64,000 nucleotides of DNA. It comes from Labrys monachus (GTDB lineage: Bacteria; Pseudomonadota; Alphaproteobacteria; Rhizobiales; Labraceae). How positions within the stretch are numbered: position 1 is the stretch's first letter; each line of letters begins with the position of its first letter. Location: positions 6,517,001 to 6,581,000 of the forward strand of contig NZ_JAUSVK010000001.1 in the NCBI RefSeq assembly GCF_030814655.1, in the 5' to 3' direction. Made by a program: the position numbers and the translations under genes. Below, piece after piece: positions 4,920 to 27,597 of the stretch. A model generated the notes under the pieces. It had not been told where the DNA came from. It did no database searches and saw only the letters and a program-made list of their open reading frames with translations.

Positions 4920-6305
4920 TCACGAACGCAGCGCCTTCAGCCAGCGCTCCGCCTGGGCCTTGACGTTGTCCGGCGCCGTGCCGCCATAGGAGGTGCGGCT
5001 GCGCACCGAGTTCTCGACGCCCAGCACCGCGTAGACGCCCTCGTGGATGCGAGGCTCGACCTCGCGCATCTCGGCGAGCGTGAGGCTCTCGAGCGGCGCG
5101 TCGCCCTTCGCCGAGGCCATGCCGACCAGCCTGCCGGTGGCGTGATGGGCCTCGCGGAACGGCAGGCCGAGCTCGCGCACCAGCCAGTCGGCGAGGTCGG
5201 TCGCGGTCGCATAGCCGGCGCCGGCGGCTGTCTTCATGCGCGCGGTGTCGGGGCGCAGATCGCGCACCATGCCGGCCATGGCGGCGGTGGCGAGCGACAG
5301 CGTCTGCAGCGCGTCGAAGGCCTGCTCCTTGTCCTCCTGCATGTCCTTGGCATAGGCCAGCGGCAAGCCCTTCATCACCACGAGCAGCGCGACGAGCGCG
5401 CCGATGACGCGGCCGGCCTTGGCGCGCACCAGCTCGGCCGCGTCGGGATTGCGCTTCTGCGGCATGATCGAAGAGCCGGTGGTGAACTTGTCGGACAGGG
5501 CGACGAAGGCGAATTGCGGCGTCGTCCAGATCACGATCTCCTCGGCGAAGCGCGACAGATGCATGGCGCCGATCGCAGCCGCCGCGAGCGCCTCGAGCAC
5601 GAAGTCGCGGTCCGACACCGAATCGATGGAGTTGGCCGTCGGGCGGTCGAAGCCGAGGGCGGCGGCGGTGGCGCGCCGATCGATCGGGAAGGAGGTGCCG
5701 GCGAGGGCGGCCGCGCCCAGCGGGCTCTCGTTGAGCCGCCGGCGGGCGTCGGCGAAACGCCCCCTGTCGCGGCCGAGCATCTCCACATAAGCGAGGAGGT
5801 GGTGGCCGAAGGTGACCGGCTGGGCCGATTGCAGATGGGTGAAGCCGGGCATCACCGCATCGTGGAAGGCGAGCGCCTTCTCGGCGAGGGCGGTCATCAG
5901 ATCCGCGAGCTGGCCGTCGAGCTCGTCGATGGTGTCGCGCACCCACAGGCGGAAATCGGTGGCGACCTGGTCATTGCGCGAGCGCGCCGTATGCAGGCGG
6001 CCTGCGGCGGGCCCGGCGATGGCGGCCAGGCGCGACTCGACATTCATATGGATGTCTTCGAGCGCACGCGAAAAAGTGAACGTCCCGCCCTCGATTTCGC
6101 CGCGGACGGCCTCTAGACCATCGCTGATGGCCTTGGCATCCGCCGTTCCGACGATGCCTTGCGCTTCGAGCATGGAGAGATGGGCGAGCGATCCGCGAAT
6201 GTCCTGCGCCCACAGGCGCTTGTCAAAGTCGATCGAGGCGTTGATCTCTTCCATGAGCGCGTCGGGTCCTGACTGGAACCGGCCGCCCCACATTTTGTTG
6301 CTCAT
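4920..6305 (-). CDS. argH: Argininosuccinate lyase
   Basis: The protein has 461 residues and starts at [20 protein letters not shown], the canonical ArgH N terminus. It splits argininosuccinate into arginine and fumarate. The fumarase/aspartase superfamily signature [11 protein letters not shown] lies in the second half, and [12 protein letters not shown], the first conserved block, near residue 110. It appears to be the first gene of argH-lptM-lysA. Its start codon lies only 15 bases from the start of the divergent tlpA gene, so the two promoters must overlap coding sequence. Confidence 0.97.
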
Positions 6306-6320
6306 CTGAACAGGCTCGCA

Positions 6321-7013
6321 ATGGACGAAAACACTCGGGACGAAACTCCCCGGGACGAAGCAACCGAGGCGCGGCCGCCGCGGAAATCGTCGGCACGCTG
6401 GATGATCGGCGCGGCGGTCGTGGCCGGCGTGGTGGCCGGCGTGGCGGCGATATACGGGACAAAGGACGGTTCCCGCAATCAGGAAAGCGCCGCCTGCCCG
6501 GGTTCGGCCGCGGTCGCCGCGAAAATGGACCCGCTCGCCAAGGGCCAGATCGCCGCGCTCAATGTCAGCGCCGCACCGCAGCCTCTGCCGCCGATCAGCT
6601 TTCAGCGGGCGGACGGCACCAGCATGTCGCTCGCCGATTTCAAGGGGCGCACGGTGCTCCTCAATCTGTGGGCGACGTGGTGCGTGCCCTGCCGGCGCGA
6701 GATGCCGGCGCTCAACAAGCTGGAGGGCGATCTCGGCGGCAAGGATTTCGAGGTCGTCGCCGTCAATATCGATACCCGCAATGCGGACAGGGTCGCCGCC
6801 TTCCTCGATGACAACAAGATCGACAGGCTCGCCCGTTACGCCGATCCCTCGACCGGCATCCTGCAGAGCCTGAAGGACGAAGGCCTCGGCCAGGGCCTGC
6901 CGACCTCGGTGGTGATCGACCGCCAGGGCTGCCGCCTCGCCGCAATGGCCGGGCCCGCCGAATGGGCGAGCGACGAGGCCAAGGCGGTGATCAAGGCGGC
7001 GACGGGACTTTAG
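6321..7013 (+). CDS. tlpA: TlpA family thioredoxin-like disulfide reductase
   Basis: The protein has 230 residues. A charged cytoplasmic tail ([20 protein letters not shown]) precedes one membrane anchor (about 28-45, [19 protein letters not shown]), and a periplasmic thioredoxin fold begins near residue 90. The redox motif is WCVPC, Cys121 and Cys124. The family reduces periplasmic disulfides, including those of cytochrome oxidase assembly proteins. A cis-proline precedes the last strands ([12 protein letters not shown]). No strong ribosome binding site precedes the ATG. It is divergent from argH, an order seen in other rhizobial genomes. Confidence 0.9.
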
Positions 7014-7030
7014 TTGATCCTTCCAGGTCG

Positions 7031-7075
7031 CGCCGCCCCTCACCTCTATCCTCTCCCCGCAAGCGGGGAGAGGGG
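7031..7075 (+). repeat. Hairpin repeat A, left copy beside the DUF559 gene
   Basis: The element begins GCCGCCCCTCACCTCTAT and ends in a hairpin with 11-bp arms (CCTCTCCCCGC at 7050-7060, complement at 7063-7073) joined by AA. A near-perfect copy lies at 7571-7622 in the opposite orientation. Such hairpins are widespread intergenic repeats in rhizobial genomes. Confidence 0.8.
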
Positions 7076-7162
7076 ACTTCGATGTCGCGCCGGTCCTGAA
7101 AGGCCTCCATCTCGCAGCCTGGAGATTGAGGCTTCGGTGTTCGGCGATCGGAATACGGAAAA

Positions 7163-7525
7163 TCAACCTTCCTGTTCTTCCATAGCGGCGAGAATCAGCT
7201 CGAGCACGCCCTCGATACTCTCCCGGACGGCGGCATTTGATACTCGCAATACACGGTATCCATTCTGCTGCAGGTATTTCGTCCGCAGCAGATCATGTGC
7301 GACTTCGGAAGCCGTCGAATGCGTGGCCCCGTCGACTTCGACGATGAGCTTTCGCTCCCGGCAGACGAAGTCGACGAAATAGGGACCGATCGGAGATTGG
7401 CGGATGAATTTGTGCCCCGCCAGGGAGCGGTTTCTCAGGTGACGCCAGATGATTTTCTCGGCCGTCGGAGCGTCCCTGCGCAATCGCTGGGCACGTGCAT
7501 GTGTCGGAAGATCGACAGAACGCAT
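7163..7525 (-). CDS. DUF559 domain protein, Vsr-like endonuclease
   Basis: The protein has 120 residues. It matches DUF559, a small family related to the very-short-patch repair endonuclease Vsr. The N-terminal block [20 protein letters not shown] is followed by the PD-(D/E)xK-like core: [14 protein letters not shown] supplies the first acid and [11 protein letters not shown] the ExD pair, with [11 protein letters not shown] after it. It probably cuts or nicks DNA, but no member's substrate is known to me. It stands alone between two inverted copies of hairpin repeat A, downstream of rlmH and tlpA. Confidence 0.85.
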
Positions 7526-7570
7526 CTATCCCTCCTTGCAGCGGTTCAGACATGACCGCGACGCTGGTGC

Positions 7571-7622
7571 CCCCCTCTCCCCGCCTTGCGGGGAGAGGAT
7601 AGAGGTGAGGGGCAGCGCCGCC
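7571..7622 (-). repeat. Hairpin repeat A, right copy, inverted
   Basis: Reading on the minus strand it repeats the left element almost base for base over about 30 positions (GCTGCCCCTCACCTCTAT, then the CCTCTCCCCGC arm). Its hairpin spans 7574-7598 with 11-bp arms and a 3-base loop. Together the copies form inverted flanks around the DUF559 gene; this one ends 22 bases from the rlmH stop. Confidence 0.8.
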
Positions 7623-7644
7623 ATCCACCATGGAATAGCTCCCG

Positions 7645-8124
7645 TCACACCCGGTGATAGGGATGCCCGGCGATGATGGTCGAGGCGCGGTAGAGCTGTT
7701 CGGCCAGGAGGATGCGCACGATCTGGTGCGGCCATGTCATCCGGCCGAAGGAGAGGGTCATCGCGGCCTTCGCCTTCACGGCCTCGCCATGGCCGTCGGC
7801 GCCGCCGATCAGGAAGGCGAGCGATGGCGTGCCGGCGTCGCGCCAGCCTGCGATCTTCGCGGCGAAGGCCTCGCTGCCGGGAAGGGCGCCGTTCTCGTCG
7901 AGGGCGGCGACCAGCGCCTCGCCGGCGGCGGCGAGCAGTTTTTCAGCCTCTTCCGCCTTGCGGTCCTCGGCGCGCCGCGCCCGGCTCTCGTCGATTTCGA
8001 CGATGTCGAGCGGGCCGAGCGCCAGGCTGCGCCCGCCGGCGTTCAGCCTCTCGACATAGCGGGCCACGAGATCGCGCTCCGGCCCGGCCTTGAGCCGGCC
8101 GACGGCGCAGATCGAAAGCCGCAC
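7645..8124 (-). CDS. rlmH: 23S rRNA (pseudouridine1915-N3)-methyltransferase
   Basis: The protein has 159 residues, the usual length of this SPOUT-class enzyme. It methylates pseudouridine 1915 in helix 69 of 23S rRNA in assembled ribosomes. The SAM-binding knot is visible: FLIGGADGHG, then the C-terminal run LSFGRMTWPHQIVRILLAEQ and YRASTIIAGHPYHRV, the family's closing motif. It lies 6 bases after rsfS on the same strand in the conserved nadD-rsfS-rlmH order. Confidence 0.97.
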   Translation of the reverse strand: MRLSICAVGRLKAGPERDLVARYVERLNAGGRSLALGPLDIVEIDESRARRAEDRKAEEAEKLLAAAGEALVAALDENGALPGSEAFAAKIAGWRDAGTPSLAFLIGGADGHGEAVKAKAAMTLSFGRMTWPHQIVRILLAEQLYRASTIIAGHPYHRV

Positions 8125-20754: not shown

Positions 20755-23700
20755 ATGAGCGCGATCTTCGAACACGGATGGCAGGCGGTTTCGGCAGCGG
20801 CGACGGCGGCTGCGACGAAAACGAACGACCGTCCGGTGGCGAAAGATCGCCTCGTGATGCGCGATCCCGGCCTGCCGGACGCCCAGGGCCTCTATGATCC
20901 CTCCCGCGAGAAGGATGCCTGCGGCGTCGGCTTCATCGCCGACATGAAGAACCGCAAGAGCCACGCGATCATCGCGCAGGGCCTGCAGATCCTGCACAAC
21001 CTCGACCATCGCGGCGCCGTCGGCGCCGATCCGAAGGCCGGGGACGGCTGCGGCATGCTCGTGCAGATCCCGCATGCCTTCTTCGCCGCCGAATGCGCCG
21101 CGCTGGGCTTCGCCCTGCCGGAGCCGGGCGACTATGCCGTCGGCTTCTTCTTCCTGCCGCGCAACGAGGAAGGCCGCCTCCACGCCATGCGCGTCATCGA
21201 GAAGGTGGTGGCGGACGAGGGCGAGGTCTTCCTCGGCTGGCGTGCCGTGCCCGTCGACAATGCGGGCCTCGGCGAGACCGTGCTGCCGACCGAGCCGCTG
21301 CACATGCAGGCCTTCATCGGCCGTTCGGCGGCGACGCCCGACCAGGTCGAGTTCGAGCGCCGGCTCTTCATCATCCGCAAGGTGATCTCGAACACCATCT
21401 ACAACGATGCCGCCACCCGGCCGCTGACCACGGGCTTCTACCCCGTCTCGGTGTCGAGCCGCACCGTGACCTATAAGGGCATGCTGCTCGCCACCCAGCT
21501 CGGCGACTATTTCAAGGACCTGTCGGACGAGCGCTTCCAGAGCGCCATGGCGCTGGTGCACCAGCGTTTCTCGACCAACACCTTCCCGAGCTGGACCCTC
21601 GCCCATCCCTACCGCATGGTCGCGCATAACGGCGAGATCAATACCCTGCGCGGCAACGTCAACTGGATGGCGGCGCGCCAGGCCTCCGTCGATTCCGAAC
21701 TGTTCGGCAACGACATCGGCAAGCTGTGGCCGATCTCCTATGAAGGCCAGTCGGACACCGCCTGCTTCGACAACGCGCTGGAATTCCTGGTCCAGGGCGG
21801 CTATTCGCTCGCCCATGCCATGATGATGCTGATCCCCGAGGCATGGGCGGGCAACCCGCTGATGTCGGAGGACCGGCGCGCCTTCTACGAATATCATGCC
21901 GCCCTGATGGAGCCGTGGGACGGGCCGGCCGCCGTGGTCTTCACCGACGGGCGCCAGATCGGCGCCACGCTCGACCGCAACGGCCTCCGGCCGGCGCGCT
22001 ATCTCGTCACCAAGGACGGGCTCGTCGTGCTCGCCTCCGAATTCGGCGTGCTGCCGATCCCGGAGAGCGACATCGTCGAGAAGTGGCGCCTGCAGCCCGG
22101 CAAGATGCTGCTGATCGACCTCGAGGAAGGCCGCATCATCTCCGACGACGAGATGAAGGCCTCGCTCGCCACCGCCAACCCCTATCGCGAATGGCTCAAG
22201 CGCACCCAGATCGTGCTGGAGACGCTGCCGCCGGTGGAGGCGCGCGCCTCGCGCACCGACGTGTCGCTGCTCGACCGCCAGCAGGCCTTCGGCTACACCC
22301 AGGAAGACATCAAGCTCCTGCTGCCGCCGATGGCGACGACGGGCCAGGAAGCCGTCGGCTCGATGGGCACGGACACGCCGATCTCGGCGCTGTCCGACAA
22401 GTCCAAGCTGCTCTACACCTATTTCAAGCAGAATTTCGCGCAGGTCACCAACCCGCCGATCGACCCGATCCGCGAGGAGCTGGTGATGAGCCTCGTCTCC
22501 TTCATCGGGCCGCGGCCGAACATCCTCGACCTCGAGGGCACCTCGCGCAAGAAGCGGCTCGAAGTGCGCCAGCCCATCCTCACCAATGAGGATTTGGAGA
22601 AGATCCGCTGCATCGGCCATGTCGAGGAGCGCTTCGACACCAAGACGCTCGACATGACCTATCCGGCGACCCAGGGCGCCGAGGGCATGCGCGGGGCGCT
22701 CGACCGCCTGTGCGAGCGCGCCGAGGCGGCGGTGCATGGCGGCTACAACATCATCATCCTCTCCGACCGGCAGACCGGCGCCGACCGCATTCCGATCCCG
22801 GCGCTGCTGGCGACGGCGGCGGTGCATCATCACCTCATCCGCCGCGGTCTGCGCACGGCGGCGGGGCTGGTGGTCGAGACGGGCGAGGCGCGCGAGATCC
22901 ATCATTTCTGCTGCCTCGCCGGCTATGGCGCGGAGGCCATCAACCCCTATCTCGCCTTCGAGACGCTGTCGGCGCTGCATGCCCAGCTCGACTTCCCCGA
23001 GGAGGTCGACGAGCAGGAAATCGTCAAGCGCTACATCAAGTCGATCGGCAAGGGCGTGCTGAAGGTGATGTCCAAGATGGGCATCTCGACCTATCAGTCC
23101 TATTGCGGCGCGCAGATCTTCGACGCGGTGGGCCTGTCCTCGGCGCTGGTCGACGAGTTCTTCTTCGGCACCGCCACCATGATCGAAGGCGTCGGCCTCA
23201 ACGAGATCGCCGCCGAGGCGGTCTCGCGCCATCGCGACGCCTTCTCCGACGCGCCGGTCTATCGCAGCGCCCTCGATGTCGGCGGCGAATATGCCTACCG
23301 CATCCGCGGCGAGGACCATGTCTGGACGCCGGACAGCGTCGCCACGCTGCAGCATGCCGTGCGCGCCAATGCGCAGGACCGCTATCGCGACTATGCCGCA
23401 AGCGTGAACGAACAGGCGGCGCATCTCCAGACCATCCGGGGCCTGTTCCGCATCAAGTCGGCGCAGCAGCGCGGGCTCGCGCCCGTGCCTCTCGAGGATG
23501 TCGAGCCGGCAAAGGAACTGGTGAAGCGCTTCGTCACCGGGGCGATGTCGTTCGGCTCGATCTCGCGCGAGGCGCATGAATCGCTGGCCATCGCCATGAA
23601 CGCCATCGGCGGCAAGTCCAACACCGGCGAAGGCGGCGAGGAGGCCGAGCGCTTCAAGACGTTGCCGGACGGGCGGTCCAAGCGCTCGGCGATCAAGCAG

Positions 23701-25503
23701 GTCGCCTCGGGCCGCTTCGGCGTCACGGCGGAATATCTCGTCAACGCCGACATGATGCAGATCAAGGTCGCGCAGGGCGCCAAGCCCGGCGAAGGCGGCC
23801 AGCTGCCCGGCCACAAGGTCGACGCCGTCATCGCCAAGGTGCGCCATTCGACGCCCGGCGTCGGCCTGATCTCGCCGCCGCCCCATCACGACATCTATTC
23901 GATCGAGGATCTGGCGCAGCTGATCTTCGACCTGAAGAACGTCAACCCGGCGGCGGACGTCTCGGTCAAGCTGGTGTCGGAAGTCGGCGTCGGCACGGTC
24001 GCGGCCGGCGTCGCCAAGGCGCGGGCCGACCATATCACCGTGTCCGGCTTCGAGGGCGGCACCGGCGCCTCGCCGCTGACCTCGATCAAGCATGCCGGCT
24101 CGCCCTGGGAGATCGGCCTCGCCGAGACCCAGCAGACGCTGGTGCTCAACCGCCTGCGCTCGCGCGTGCGGCTGCAGGTCGACGGCGGCCTGCGCACCGG
24201 GCGCGACGTCGTCATCGGCGCGCTGCTGGGGGCGGACGAGTTCGGCTTCTCCACCGCGCCGCTGATCGCGGCCGGCTGCATCATGATGCGCAAGTGCCAT
24301 CTCAACACCTGCCCGGTGGGCGTGGCGACGCAGGACCCCGTCCTGCGCAAGCGCTTCAAGGGCACGCCCGAGCACATCATCAACTTCTTCTTCTTCGTCG
24401 CCGAGGAAGTGCGCGAGCTGATGGCCGAGCTCGGCTTCAAGCGGTTCGAGGACATGGTCGGCCGCTCGGACCTGCTCGACCGCCGGGAGGCCGTCGAGCA
24501 TTGGAAGGCGAAGGGGCTCGACTTCTCGCGGATCTTCCACAAGGTCGACATGCCCGCCAATGTCGGCATCCGCCACAGCGAGAAGCAGCACCATCCGATC
24601 GAGCACGTGCTCGACAGGACGCTGATCGCCGAGGCGGCGCCGGCGCTCGATTACGGCCGCGAGGTCACGATCGAGGCCCGCATCAACAACACCCAGCGTA
24701 CCGCCGGCGCCATGCTGTCGGGCGAGGTCGCCCTGCGCTACGGCTATGAGGGCCTGCCGGACGGCACCATCAAGGTGAACCTCACCGGCACGGCGGGCCA
24801 GAGCTTCGGCTCCTTCCTGGCGGCGGGCGTCGACCTCACCCTCGTCGGCCAGGCCAACGACTATGTCGGCAAGGGCCTGTCGGGCGGGCGCATCGTCATC
24901 AAGCCGCATCCGGATTCGGGCGCGGTGCCGGAGAAGTCGATCATCGTCGGCAACACCGTGCTCTACGGCGCGGTGTCGGGCGAATGCTATTTCCGCGGCG
25001 TCGCCGGGGAACGCTTCGCCGTGCGCAATTCCGGCGCGGCGGCGGTGGTCGAGGGCACCGGCGACCATGGCTGCGAATACATGACCGGCGGCGTGGTGGT
25101 GGTGCTCGGGCAGACGGGCCGCAACTTCGCGGCCGGCATGTCCGGCGGCGTCGCCTATGTCTATGACGAGGACAACTCCTTCGCCAAGCGCTGCAACCTC
25201 TCCATGGTCGACCTCGAGCCGGTGGAAGAGGAAGAGGACCTGATGGAGCGCCTCCACCATCATGGCGGCGATCTGGAATTCAAGGGCCGCATCGACGTGT
25301 CCGGCGACATGGGCCGGCACGACGAGGAACGCCTGCGCAAGATGATCGAGAACCATCTGCACTATACGGGCTCGACCCTGGCGCAGACGATGCTGGACGA
25401 TTGGGCGACCTATCGCACCCGCTTCGTCAAGGTGATGCCGGTGGAATACCGGCGCGCCCTGCGCGAGATGGAGAAGGCCCGTACGCTGATGGCGGCCGAG
25501 TAG
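20755..25503 (+). CDS. gltB: Glutamate synthase (NADPH) large subunit
   Basis: The protein has 1582 residues. It makes glutamate from glutamine and 2-oxoglutarate. The glutaminase nucleophile is Cys56 in KDACGVGF, exposed after removal of a 55-residue propeptide. The FMN-binding synthase domain spans roughly 870-1260; its 3Fe-4S cysteines are Cys1175, Cys1181 and Cys1186 ([12 protein letters not shown]). The C-terminal beta-helix (GXGXG repeats such as [20 protein letters not shown]) completes it. A functional enzyme needs GltD, encoded 669 bp downstream after an inserted nuclease cassette. Confidence 0.98.
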
Positions 25504-25510
25504 GGATGCA

Positions 25511-25642
25511 GTCATCCCGTGCGCACTGCGCCATGCAATGGCGCGGTGCAGACACGGGACCGCAGGAGGAGTTGAGCTCTTTTCTGCGGACGGTCCCGGA
25601 TCTGCGAAGCGTCACTTCGTGCCGCATCGCGTCCGGGATGAC
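25511..25642 (+). repeat. Repeat C, left copy (132 bp, terminal inverted repeats)
   Basis: It starts GTCATCCCG and ends CGGGATGAC, a 9-bp terminal inverted repeat. Its last 52 bases (from 25591) are identical to the end of the right copy, and the first parts share ATGCAATGG, GGGA and CGCAGG patches. It begins 7 bases after the gltB stop. Confidence 0.85.
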
Positions 25643-25669
25643 ATTCCGCTGCCGACGGCAGAGAGTTCG

Positions 25670-25969
25670 ATGTCCGACGAGCGCTTCCACGTCTACATGA
25701 TGGCGACGCGCAAGGGCGGACCCATCTACACGGGCATTACGAATGATCTTTTTCGCCGGGTCCATGAGCACAAATCTCATGTCTGGCGAGGATTTACGGC
25801 GAAATATAATGTCGACAAGCTGGTTTGGTGCGAGCCCTATGACAACCCCGGGGAGGCCATAGCTCGCGAAAAACAGCTCAAGAAATGGCGGAGAGCCTGG
25901 AAGGTCGCTTTGATCGAGGAGGAAAAGCCCGATTGGCGTGACTTGGCAGGGGATTTGCTTGGGCAATGA
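25670..25969 (+). CDS. GIY-YIG nuclease domain protein (UPF0213-like)
   Basis: The product has 99 residues and is a minimal GIY-YIG domain: FHVYMMATRKGGPIYTGITN carries the two tyrosines of the family motif, DLFRRVHEHK the catalytic arginine and histidine, and NPGEAIAREKQLKKWRRAWK the glutamate-bearing helix. Such single-domain proteins may cut or bind branched or nicked DNA, but their role is unknown. It lies between two copies of repeat C, and the right copy begins two bases after its stop. An in-frame upstream start at 25538 lies within repeat C and is rejected. Confidence 0.88.
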   Translation: MSDERFHVYMMATRKGGPIYTGITNDLFRRVHEHKSHVWRGFTAKYNVDKLVWCEPYDNPGEAIAREKQLKKWRRAWKVALIEEEKPDWRDLAGDLLGQ

Positions 25970-25971
25970 TT

Positions 25972-26102
25972 GTCATCCCGGAGGCCATGTATCATGCAAT
26001 GGTGCGTTGCAGGTCCGGGATCGCAGGCGGAGCCGAGTTCCTTCTGCAATCGGTCCCGGATCTGCGAAGCGTCACTTCGTGCCGCATCGCGTCCGGGATG
26101 AC
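25972..26102 (+). repeat. Repeat C, right copy (131 bp)
   Basis: It has the same ends as the left copy (GTCATCCCG, CGGGATGAC), in the same direction. The final 52 bases (26051-26102) match the left copy exactly; the first ~75 bases have diverged. It begins directly after the GIY-YIG stop codon, so gene and repeat look like one unit. Confidence 0.85.
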
Positions 26103-26122
26103 TTTGGTTTTATTGCGATCCT

Positions 26123-26160
26123 GATCTGCGAGCGTCACTCCGCATCGCGTCCGGGATGAC
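26123..26160 (+). repeat. Repeat C, truncated third copy
   Basis: GATCTGCGAGCGTCACT, then CGCATCGCGTCCGGGATGAC, repeats the 3' end of repeat C with two small deletions. It ends 12 bases before the gltD start, so it occupies the gltD leader and ribosome-binding region. Confidence 0.75.
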
Positions 26161-26172
26161 GAGGATTGAAGT

Positions 26173-27597
26173 ATGGGCAAGGCAACAGGTTTTCTCGAGA
26201 TCGACCGGCAGGACCAGAAGTACCTGCCGGCGGCCGATCGTATCCGCAACTACCGCGAGTTCACGCTGCCGCTCGACGACAAGGACGTCGCCAAGCAGGC
26301 GGCGCGCTGCATGGATTGCGGCATTCCCTATTGCCACGGCCCGACGGGGTGCCCGGTCAACAACCAGATCCCGGACTGGAACGACCTCGTCTACCAGGAC
26401 GATTGGGAGGAGGCGACGCGCAACCTCCACTCGACCAACAACTTCCCCGAATTCACCGGCCGCATCTGCCCGGCGCCCTGCGAGGAAGCCTGCACGCTCA
26501 ACCTCGAGAACGTGCCGGTGACGATCAAGACGATCGAGCAGTCGATCGCCGACAAGGCCTGGGCGATGGGCTGGATCAAGCCGGAGATGCCCCTGGTGAA
26601 GACCGGCCGGAAGGTCGCGGTCGTCGGCTCGGGGCCGGCCGGCATGGCGGCGGCGCAGCAACTCGCCCGCGCCGGCCACGACGTGCATGTGTATGAGCGC
26701 GAACCGCGGGCCGGAGGCCTGCTGCGCTACGGCATTCCCGACTTCAAGATGGAAAAGCACCACATCGAGCGCCGCGTGCGCCAGATGGAGGCCGAGGGCG
26801 TCACCTTCCACTACAACGTCAATATCGGCGTCACCCTCAGCTTCGCCGATCTCAAGGCAGGCCATGACGCGGTGCTGATGGCGGCCGGCGCCGAGGCGCC
26901 GCGCGATCCGACATTGCCGGGCGCCGACCTCGAAGGCGTCCATTTCGCCATGCCCTACCTCGTCCAGCAGAACCGCCGCGTCGCCGGCGAGGATGTCAGC
27001 CGCGAGGAGCCGATCCTGGCGACCGGCAAGCACATCGTCGTCATCGGCGGCGGCGACACCGCTTCGGACTGCGTCGGCACCTCCTTCCGCCAGGGCGCGA
27101 TCTCGGTGACCCAGCTCGACATCCGCCCGCGTCCGCCCGAGCGCGAGGACAAGCTGGCGATCTGGCCCTATTGGCCGACCAAGCTCAGGACGTCCTCCTC
27201 CCAGGCCGAGGGCGCCGAGCGCGAGTTCCAGGCCGCCACGCTCGCGGTGGTCGGCAAGAAGGGCCGCGTCACCGGCGTCCGCGTCGCCCGCGTCGACGAG
27301 AAGCGCCGGCCGATCGAGGGAACCGAGTTCGTGATCCGGGCCGATGCCGTGTTCATCGCGCTCGGCTTCACCGGCCCGCTCAAGGCCGGGCTGGTGGAGC
27401 AGTCCGGCGTCGACCTCGACAAGCGCGGCAACATCGCCGCTGACGACGAGAACTATCGGACATCGCAGGACAAGGTCTTCGCGGCGGGCGACATGCGCCG
27501 GGGCCAGTCCCTCGTCGTCTGGGCGATCCGCGAGGGCCGGCAGGCCGCCCGCGCCATCGACGAGGCGCTGATGGGCACGACGACGCTGCCGCGATAG
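26173..27597 (+). CDS. gltD: Glutamate synthase (NADPH) small subunit
   Basis: The protein has 474 residues. It passes electrons from NADPH to GltB. The N-terminal ferredoxin-like region has cysteines at 46, 49, 54 and 60 ([16 protein letters not shown]) and a second group in [15 protein letters not shown], ligating two 4Fe-4S clusters. FAD- and NADPH-binding folds follow: [20 protein letters not shown] (near 145) and [16 protein letters not shown] (near 290). The C-terminal [21 protein letters not shown] is standard. It is separated from gltB by the repeat C/GIY-YIG insertion. Confidence 0.97.

Follow-up and report, generated by a model that had tools for sequence, protein, structure and literature searches.

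The glutamate synthase genes gltB and gltD in the window, by which we mean the whole 64-kb stretch of DNA that was analysed, are separated by a gap of 669 bp, counted from the end of the gltB stop codon to the gltD start. This gap holds a stand-alone gene of the GIY-YIG nuclease superfamily, which is enclosed by two direct palindromic repeats of 131-132 bp and followed by a truncated third repeat copy (Table 1). The first-pass annotation of this DNA had described the enclosed gene, the third copy before gltD and a right repeat placed two bases past the stop codon of the gene. All three were seen again on re-analysis, the third copy being 85% identical and the right repeat beginning 2 nt after the stop. 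The gene comprises 99 codons plus the stop, and an upstream ATG at 25538 in the open frame gives an ORF of 143 aa. In the first-pass annotation gltD was also taken to depend on read-through or on a promoter in the cassette; a scan gave a single weak match resembling a promoter, at 25943-25970, and none resembling a terminator.

Table 1. Features in and around the gltB-gltD gap, in positions of the window.
Feature	Position	Strand	Basis
gltB, glutamate synthase large subunit, left neighbour	20755..25503	+	ORF and family matches
Left palindromic repeat; pair of long hairpin units with GTCAT tags, inverted, tags outward	25511..25642	+	alignment, folding
Stand-alone GIY-YIG nuclease gene, 99 aa; Y9, Y20, R30 and E67 present	25670..25969	+	ORF, Pfam, alignment
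Right palindromic repeat; family and orientation as left copy	25972..26102	+	alignment, folding
Third repeat copy, truncated (right-hand unit), in gltD leader	about 26120..26160	+	alignment
gltD, glutamate synthase small subunit, right neighbour	26173..27597	+	ORF and family matches

The left and right repeats are 83% identical overall, with 74% identity in the initial 72 nt and 94% in the final 64 nt, and their ends read GTCATCCCG / CGGGATGAC. The motif CGTCCGGGATGAC, with at most one mismatch, occurs four times in the 64 kb, each time in the gltB-gltD gap; shuffled sequence contained it 0.27 times on average, and none of 100 shuffles gave four occurrences. Because the two full copies fold far better than their shuffled counterparts (z-scores of -7.21 and -7.15), each repeat can be described as a long palindrome, a property that is absent from the first-pass annotation. 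Each full copy consists of an inverted pair of long hairpins, with GTCAT at both outer ends. When 23 genome places were aligned, a few of them only partly homologous, double compensatory changes were found at 14 of the 30 predicted pairs, and the covariation term for this alignment was small (-0.91). Rfam gave no match up to E 1 across positions 24500-27500.

The Stand-Alone GIY-YIG Protein

The gene product matches the Pfam family GIY-YIG (PF01541) with an E-value of 1.9e-14 and 54.1 bits against a cut-off of 22.6 (55.4 bits in the genome search), and NCBIfam returned no family for it. Across 46 aligned members the residues Y9, G22, T24, R30 and H34 are invariant and Y20 nearly so, and the block R66-W73 (REKQLKKW), which includes E67, is likewise invariant. 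The two tyrosines, the arginine and the glutamate (Y9, Y20, R30, and E67) are what we take to be the catalytic residues of the GIY-YIG superfamily, and the predicted active site is intact. In an AlphaFold2 model of the 99-aa protein (mean pLDDT 88.8), the closest solved fold is that of the UPF0213 protein 1zg2, followed by chains of Slx1, a structure-selective nuclease according to the titles of the matched structures; the sequence similarity to 1zg2 is weak (E 0.0059). An active site of this Slx1-like kind may act on hairpin or branched DNA.

Two other identities were considered and rejected. The protein is not a UvrC, as it is only 99 aa long and a UvrC-like gene, with a frame of 887 aa, lies elsewhere in the genome. 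Neither is it a RAYT, as Pfam gives GIY-YIG alone and no HuH tyrosine transposase (Y1_Tnp).

Repeat and Gene in the Own Genome and in Congeners

A search of the own genome for the repeat yielded 41 match rows that correspond to 27 distinct places, three in the gap and 24 elsewhere, so that the repeat is not confined to the locus. The first-pass annotation had proposed that the gene and its repeats moved or spread as a unit, and of this proposal the part on the repeat stands, since the repeat is multi-copy, whereas a spread of the gene along with it is not supported in this genome: a GIY-YIG gene was found at none of the 24 other places. The nuclease gene is single copy in this genome, the sole other GIY-YIG match lying within the UvrC-like frame. 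A comparison of gltB-gltD spacing in close relatives, also suggested at the outset, gave 672 bp from the stop codon here vs. 101, 100, 223, and 119 bp in the congeners G001-G004. The GIY-YIG gene is absent from the gap in all four, and hence the cassette is not common to all relatives.

The repeat itself has a different distribution, with 44 match rows in G003, 23 in G002, three in G001 and none in G004 (both strands counted). This indicates that the repeat is older than the cassette in this lineage, or that the nuclease was lost elsewhere. In G002, where the 131-bp repeat is present, a search for the nuclease gave no match at E ≤ 0.001, which suggests that the repeat can persist independently of this copy of the gene. 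The gaps of G003 and G004 contain other palindromic sequences, and the gltB-gltD spot therefore seems to collect repeats.

The same gap is occupied in a Methylobacterium (sp. DS2.3.33 MAG, 5320-7800), where the order is gltB, REP, GIY-YIG gene, inverted REP and gltD, and GGTGAG stands at either side of the unit, which spans about 441 bp. The GIY-YIG gene of this unit is 62% identical to that of the window, and the left REP is 81% identical to the left repeat of the window over 64 bp; this unit may be the window cassette in simple form. Since a related cassette occupies the Methylobacterium site, the data do not prove that the insertion in this species is recent, and they agree equally well with ancient occupancy followed by losses or with one site being used repeatedly. 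For this locus only, we rate somewhat below an even chance the view that the gap was occupied anciently, that the occupant was inherited by this species and a Methylobacterium, and that it was lost in four congeners. The gene order and the similarities shared with the Methylobacterium unit speak for it, as does a GTCAT-tagged hairpin that is kept in the G004 gap (read by eye), but the cassette is missing from all four congeners, and an independent insertion at a favored site is equally possible.

Nesting of the Gene Family in CGTC REPs

In the available text of Di Nocera 2013 (PMC3733652), CGTC REPs are defined by a (C/T)GTC tag, a stem of 8-9 bp starting with AT, a loop of 4-5 and a CCA tail, and they include dRS3 of Neisseria as well as RPE-4/RPE-6 of Rickettsia. 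Our REP detector was built from this published definition, but loops of up to 30 were allowed. The strict CGTC-REP detector was negative on the window repeats, in which the GTC and the AT stem are present, the hairpins are long and the tail is not CCA. We propose that the repeat flanking the gene in the window is a lineage-specific long version of a CGTC REP pair.

The set of loci consisted of the own locus, 29 homologous loci from 60 other genomes and, out of at least 561 loci from named genomes, the best 80. Record titles of these best 80 include Alphaproteobacteria, Nitrospirales, Calditrichaeota, Zixiibacteriota, Bacteroidetes, Patescibacteria, Cloacimonadota, Spirochaetes, and others. The flanks were tested at 107 of the 110 loci, those of the other three being short. 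At most listed loci the sequence common to the flanks is a hairpin of the type GTCATTCCCGCGAANGCGGGAATCCA (GTCAT...ATCCA). Among the 107 genes, taken from the set with the best 80 of at least 561, the left and right flanks of 300 bp resemble each other (score ≥16) in 79 cases, vs. 1.1% of 4132 random placements. A CGTC REP was detected no more than 300 bp away from 82 of the genes, and 59 have one on each side; random placement gave on average 6.15 and 0.3 of 102, respectively, and the density of REPs is 3.75 per kb near the genes vs. 0.16 per kb elsewhere in the loci. Compared with other ORFs bordered on either side by at least 100 bp of intergenic DNA, the GIY-YIG ORF, taken from 67 of the best 80 (of at least 561) loci, had similar flanks in 32 of 67 cases vs. 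0 of 76; among all other ORFs of those loci the count was 6 of 435.

Most often, one REP directly precedes the start codon and an inverted one directly follows the stop, with the tags outward. In the loci that include the best 80 of at least 561, 181 of 239 flanking REPs have the CCA tail, which the detector does not require, and where REPs occur on both sides they are inverted with their tags outward at 35 of 59 genes, with tags inward at 13 and in tandem at 11. With tags outward, the REP precedes the start codon by a median of 19 nt (53 upstream REPs) and follows the stop codon by a median of 10.5 nt (44 REPs), and 32 such units measure 343-468 bp, with a median of 378. Several independent controls put it beyond reasonable doubt that a GIY-YIG subfamily is nested in CGTC REPs, and the layout of a gene inside repeats is a property of the whole family, which was not visible to the first-pass annotation.

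Synteny was rejected as a full explanation of the nesting: four Microvirga loci are mutually syntenic, but at another site. Two loci in two congeners are mutually syntenic and not flanked by REPs.

Specificity of the Association and Co-occurrence With REPs

The set containing the best 80 of at least 561 loci leans toward relatives of the window protein, and two further searches were run as an offset. The first covered 60 genomes of the order, and 110 of its 135 PF01541 matches were tested, the remainder being 16 UvrC-like or long frames and nine contig-edge, fragmentary, interrupted or other frames. Similar flanks were found for 38 of 63 stand-alone proteins, but for none of 40 UvrC and none of six longer GIY-YIG proteins, and flanking REPs for 29 of 64, one of 40 and none of six, respectively. 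In a tree of these proteins, a single clade (support 99/97) contains 42 flanked members out of 48, while the remaining stand-alone rows contain two out of 16; this tree is based on few columns and has many unresolved forks, and the flanking label needs at least six changes by its starred branches. As a control, 30 HTH_17 genes, which are small and partly mobile, had REPs in no case and similar flanks in one, with just 12 of the 30 being short frames. REPs are intergenic by nature, and two mobile things might merely gather in one intergenic space. Such a coincidence is strongly disfavored and in our view very improbable, given 0/76 matched intergenic ORFs, 0/30 HTH_17 and 1/40 UvrC genes vs. 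42/48 in the clade.

The second sample comprised 150 genomes of the phylum and was itself searched with the window protein. Out of 57 matches, 40 were fetched (six were already in the earlier set and 11 were short or low-scoring), and 37 of these 40 loci are flanked, including 12 of 13 even where the genome has two or fewer canonical REPs. The nuclease gene is present in 33 of the 150 genomes. This patchy distribution, together with the several paralogues that a genome may have at different loci, each with REPs, argues against a host or domesticated repair enzyme of the Slx1 kind, which would resolve REP hairpins or cruciforms without mobilization, the REPs regulating the gene or having been retained. 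The Slx1 chains that are the nearest solved folds after UPF0213, the short spacing between REP and start codon and the mostly chromosomal location of the gene are in line with such a role, which we hold to be improbable.

Genomes with the gene tend to have more REPs. In the 60-genome sample the median number of canonical REPs was 12 with the gene (31 genomes, E ≤ 1e-10) vs. 0 without it (p 3e-5), and among the 150 genomes at least 10 REPs were present in 17 of 33 with the gene vs. 11 of 117 without. The mean REP density was higher with the gene in seven of the eight families of this sample that have both states. Of the 33 genomes with the gene, 11 contain no more than two canonical REPs. Nine REP-rich genomes were searched for the nuclease with a profile, resulting in no match in six and weak matches in three; in REP-rich genomes that are free of the nuclease, the REPs may be fossils of lost enzymes. 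Protein distance and REP distance are weakly correlated (r 0.20, p 0.0055).

Several individual genomes and loci stand out. G148, G120, G089, and G108 contain 604, 436, 394, and 274 canonical REPs, respectively, and the nuclease is found in all four; sampled congeners of G148 and G120 have 0 to 62 canonical REPs. At six loci from four genomes of one genus, a long REP, GTCATCC...GGATCCATGCCGTGACG, adjoins the gene, and we regard it as a lineage-specific repeat type that is related to, but distinct from, the canonical one; some of these genomes have few or no canonical REPs. Two paralogues in another genome (G188) adjoin two quite different repeat types and offer a natural test of enzyme-repeat matching. 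In Neisseria viridiae and Bergeriella the nuclease gene adjoins CGTCATTCCCGCG-type repeats, which are equated with dRS3 in Neisseriae in the text available of PMC3733652.

Possible Movement and Proposed Role of the Nuclease

A clean target-site duplication could not be established: duplications of at least 5 bp were found at three of 32 units vs. 0.38 expected, with no fixed length of the kind that marks a classical insertion sequence. In one genome (G015), three paralogues have the gene and its REPs in common, and the clearest pair is homologous up to the outer edge of the REP and no further, which is weak evidence for movement because these paralogues are old (72-74% DNA identity). At the one other site compared, occupied in two of five congeners, presence and absence differ by about 860 bp, which is wider than REP-gene-REP. 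What looks like a decayed unit was seen at G006:C84:6375-6585, where two inverted canonical REPs, separated by about 185 bp, enclose a remnant match of 28 residues to the nuclease. A phage vehicle was rejected, as there was no match in 50,697 phage records at E 1e-8, while 31 of 72,556 plasmid records, several of them megabase-sized, match at E 1e-12.

This scarcity in phages and plasmids, in contrast to many homing genes, speaks against the idea that the nuclease is a selfish gene which cuts REPs without an insert and is copied in by repair guided by REP homology, so that the REPs would be landing sites and not what spreads. The higher number of REPs in gene-bearing genomes is not predicted by pure landing, except via the number of targets, and the own genome does not show a multi-copy burst of the gene. 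On the other hand, the repeat family occurs in G002, where the nuclease was not found, the gene is often placed between two partner REPs, much as an insert would be in a REP dimer, and GIY-YIG proteins include homing endonucleases (PMC1564403, available part). We hold homing to be unlikely.

The most economical reading, and judging from the sequences a probable one, is that the nuclease acts on the CGTC REPs that flank it; that it mobilizes them is less certain. As the family is usually wrapped in one kind of hairpin repeat, the nuclease is the best candidate for the missing CGTC REP enzyme. It would recognize the hairpin or cruciform formed by the REP and nick or cut near the GTC tag, after which REPs, singly or in pairs, and sometimes the gene together with its REPs would be copied or excised. 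These steps would parallel those of the RAYT (HuH) transposases, which are thought to do likewise for GTAG REPs, and by analogy the nuclease may work like a RAYT. We see an even chance that the CGTC REP superfamily has its dedicated enzymes in the stand-alone GIY-YIG nucleases of this clade and that the unit of 340-470 bp is autonomous and mobile. If so, this unit (REP, a gene of about 100 codons and an inverted REP) would be among the smallest autonomous mobile elements known, and the action of GIY-YIG on hairpins would be a chemistry undescribed for bacterial repeat mobilization, extending over many phyla. With a specific, purifiable candidate of 99 aa and defined hairpin substrates, the question of the CGTC REP partner becomes testable.

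Comparison With Known Systems

Possible counterparts of the window repeat are RIME and Bru-RS, intergenic double palindromes of about 100-130 bp from rhizobia and Brucella in the Alphaproteobacteria. The window repeat would resemble them in size, in being a double palindrome and in its occurrence in Alphaproteobacteria, and neither is known to have a nuclease partner.

The protein shares its predicted fold and its size with the stand-alone GIY-YIG proteins of the UPF0213/Slx1-like type (1zg2, 1ywl), but differs in that stand-alone rows outside the main clade are flanked by REPs in only two of 16 cases and in that its similarity to 1zg2 is weak. According to the part of the 2006 study available, prokaryotic Slx1-like proteins are mainly vertically inherited, and the question whether GIY-YIG proteins of other kinds "may function as molecular parasites" was left open there (Dunin-Horkawicz, PMC1564403). 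The pairing of GIY-YIG with REPs answers this question in the form of a hypothesis.

The flanking repeats correspond to CGTC REPs in their tag, their stem of 8-9 bp beginning with AT, the short loop and the CCA tail beside GIY-YIG genes in many phyla, whereas the window repeat, although related, is longer and differs in its tail. In the available text of the 2013 survey, CGTC REPs "apparently lack a dedicated transposase," none was found beside them, and the term GIY does not occur (PMC3733652). The accessible portion of the RepRanger article (PMC12306157) likewise contains no occurrence of nuclease, RAYT or GIY. Among the matches listed in our literature search, which had subscription papers and preprints outside its scope, no paper joining GIY-YIG to REPs was found.

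REPs are among the commonest repeats of bacterial chromosomes, and RAYTs are the accepted partner of the GTAG REPs. The units described here resemble the RAYT/REPtron system in that the palindromes are short and extragenic, carry an unpaired tag and often form inverted pairs, and in that they flank a small, mostly chromosomal gene of patchy distribution. They differ in that the enzyme is a GIY-YIG protein and not a HuH tyrosine transposase, and in that the tag is (C/T)GTC instead of GTAG. What is new is the pairing of enzyme and repeat, that is, the RAYT-REP principle with a different nuclease.
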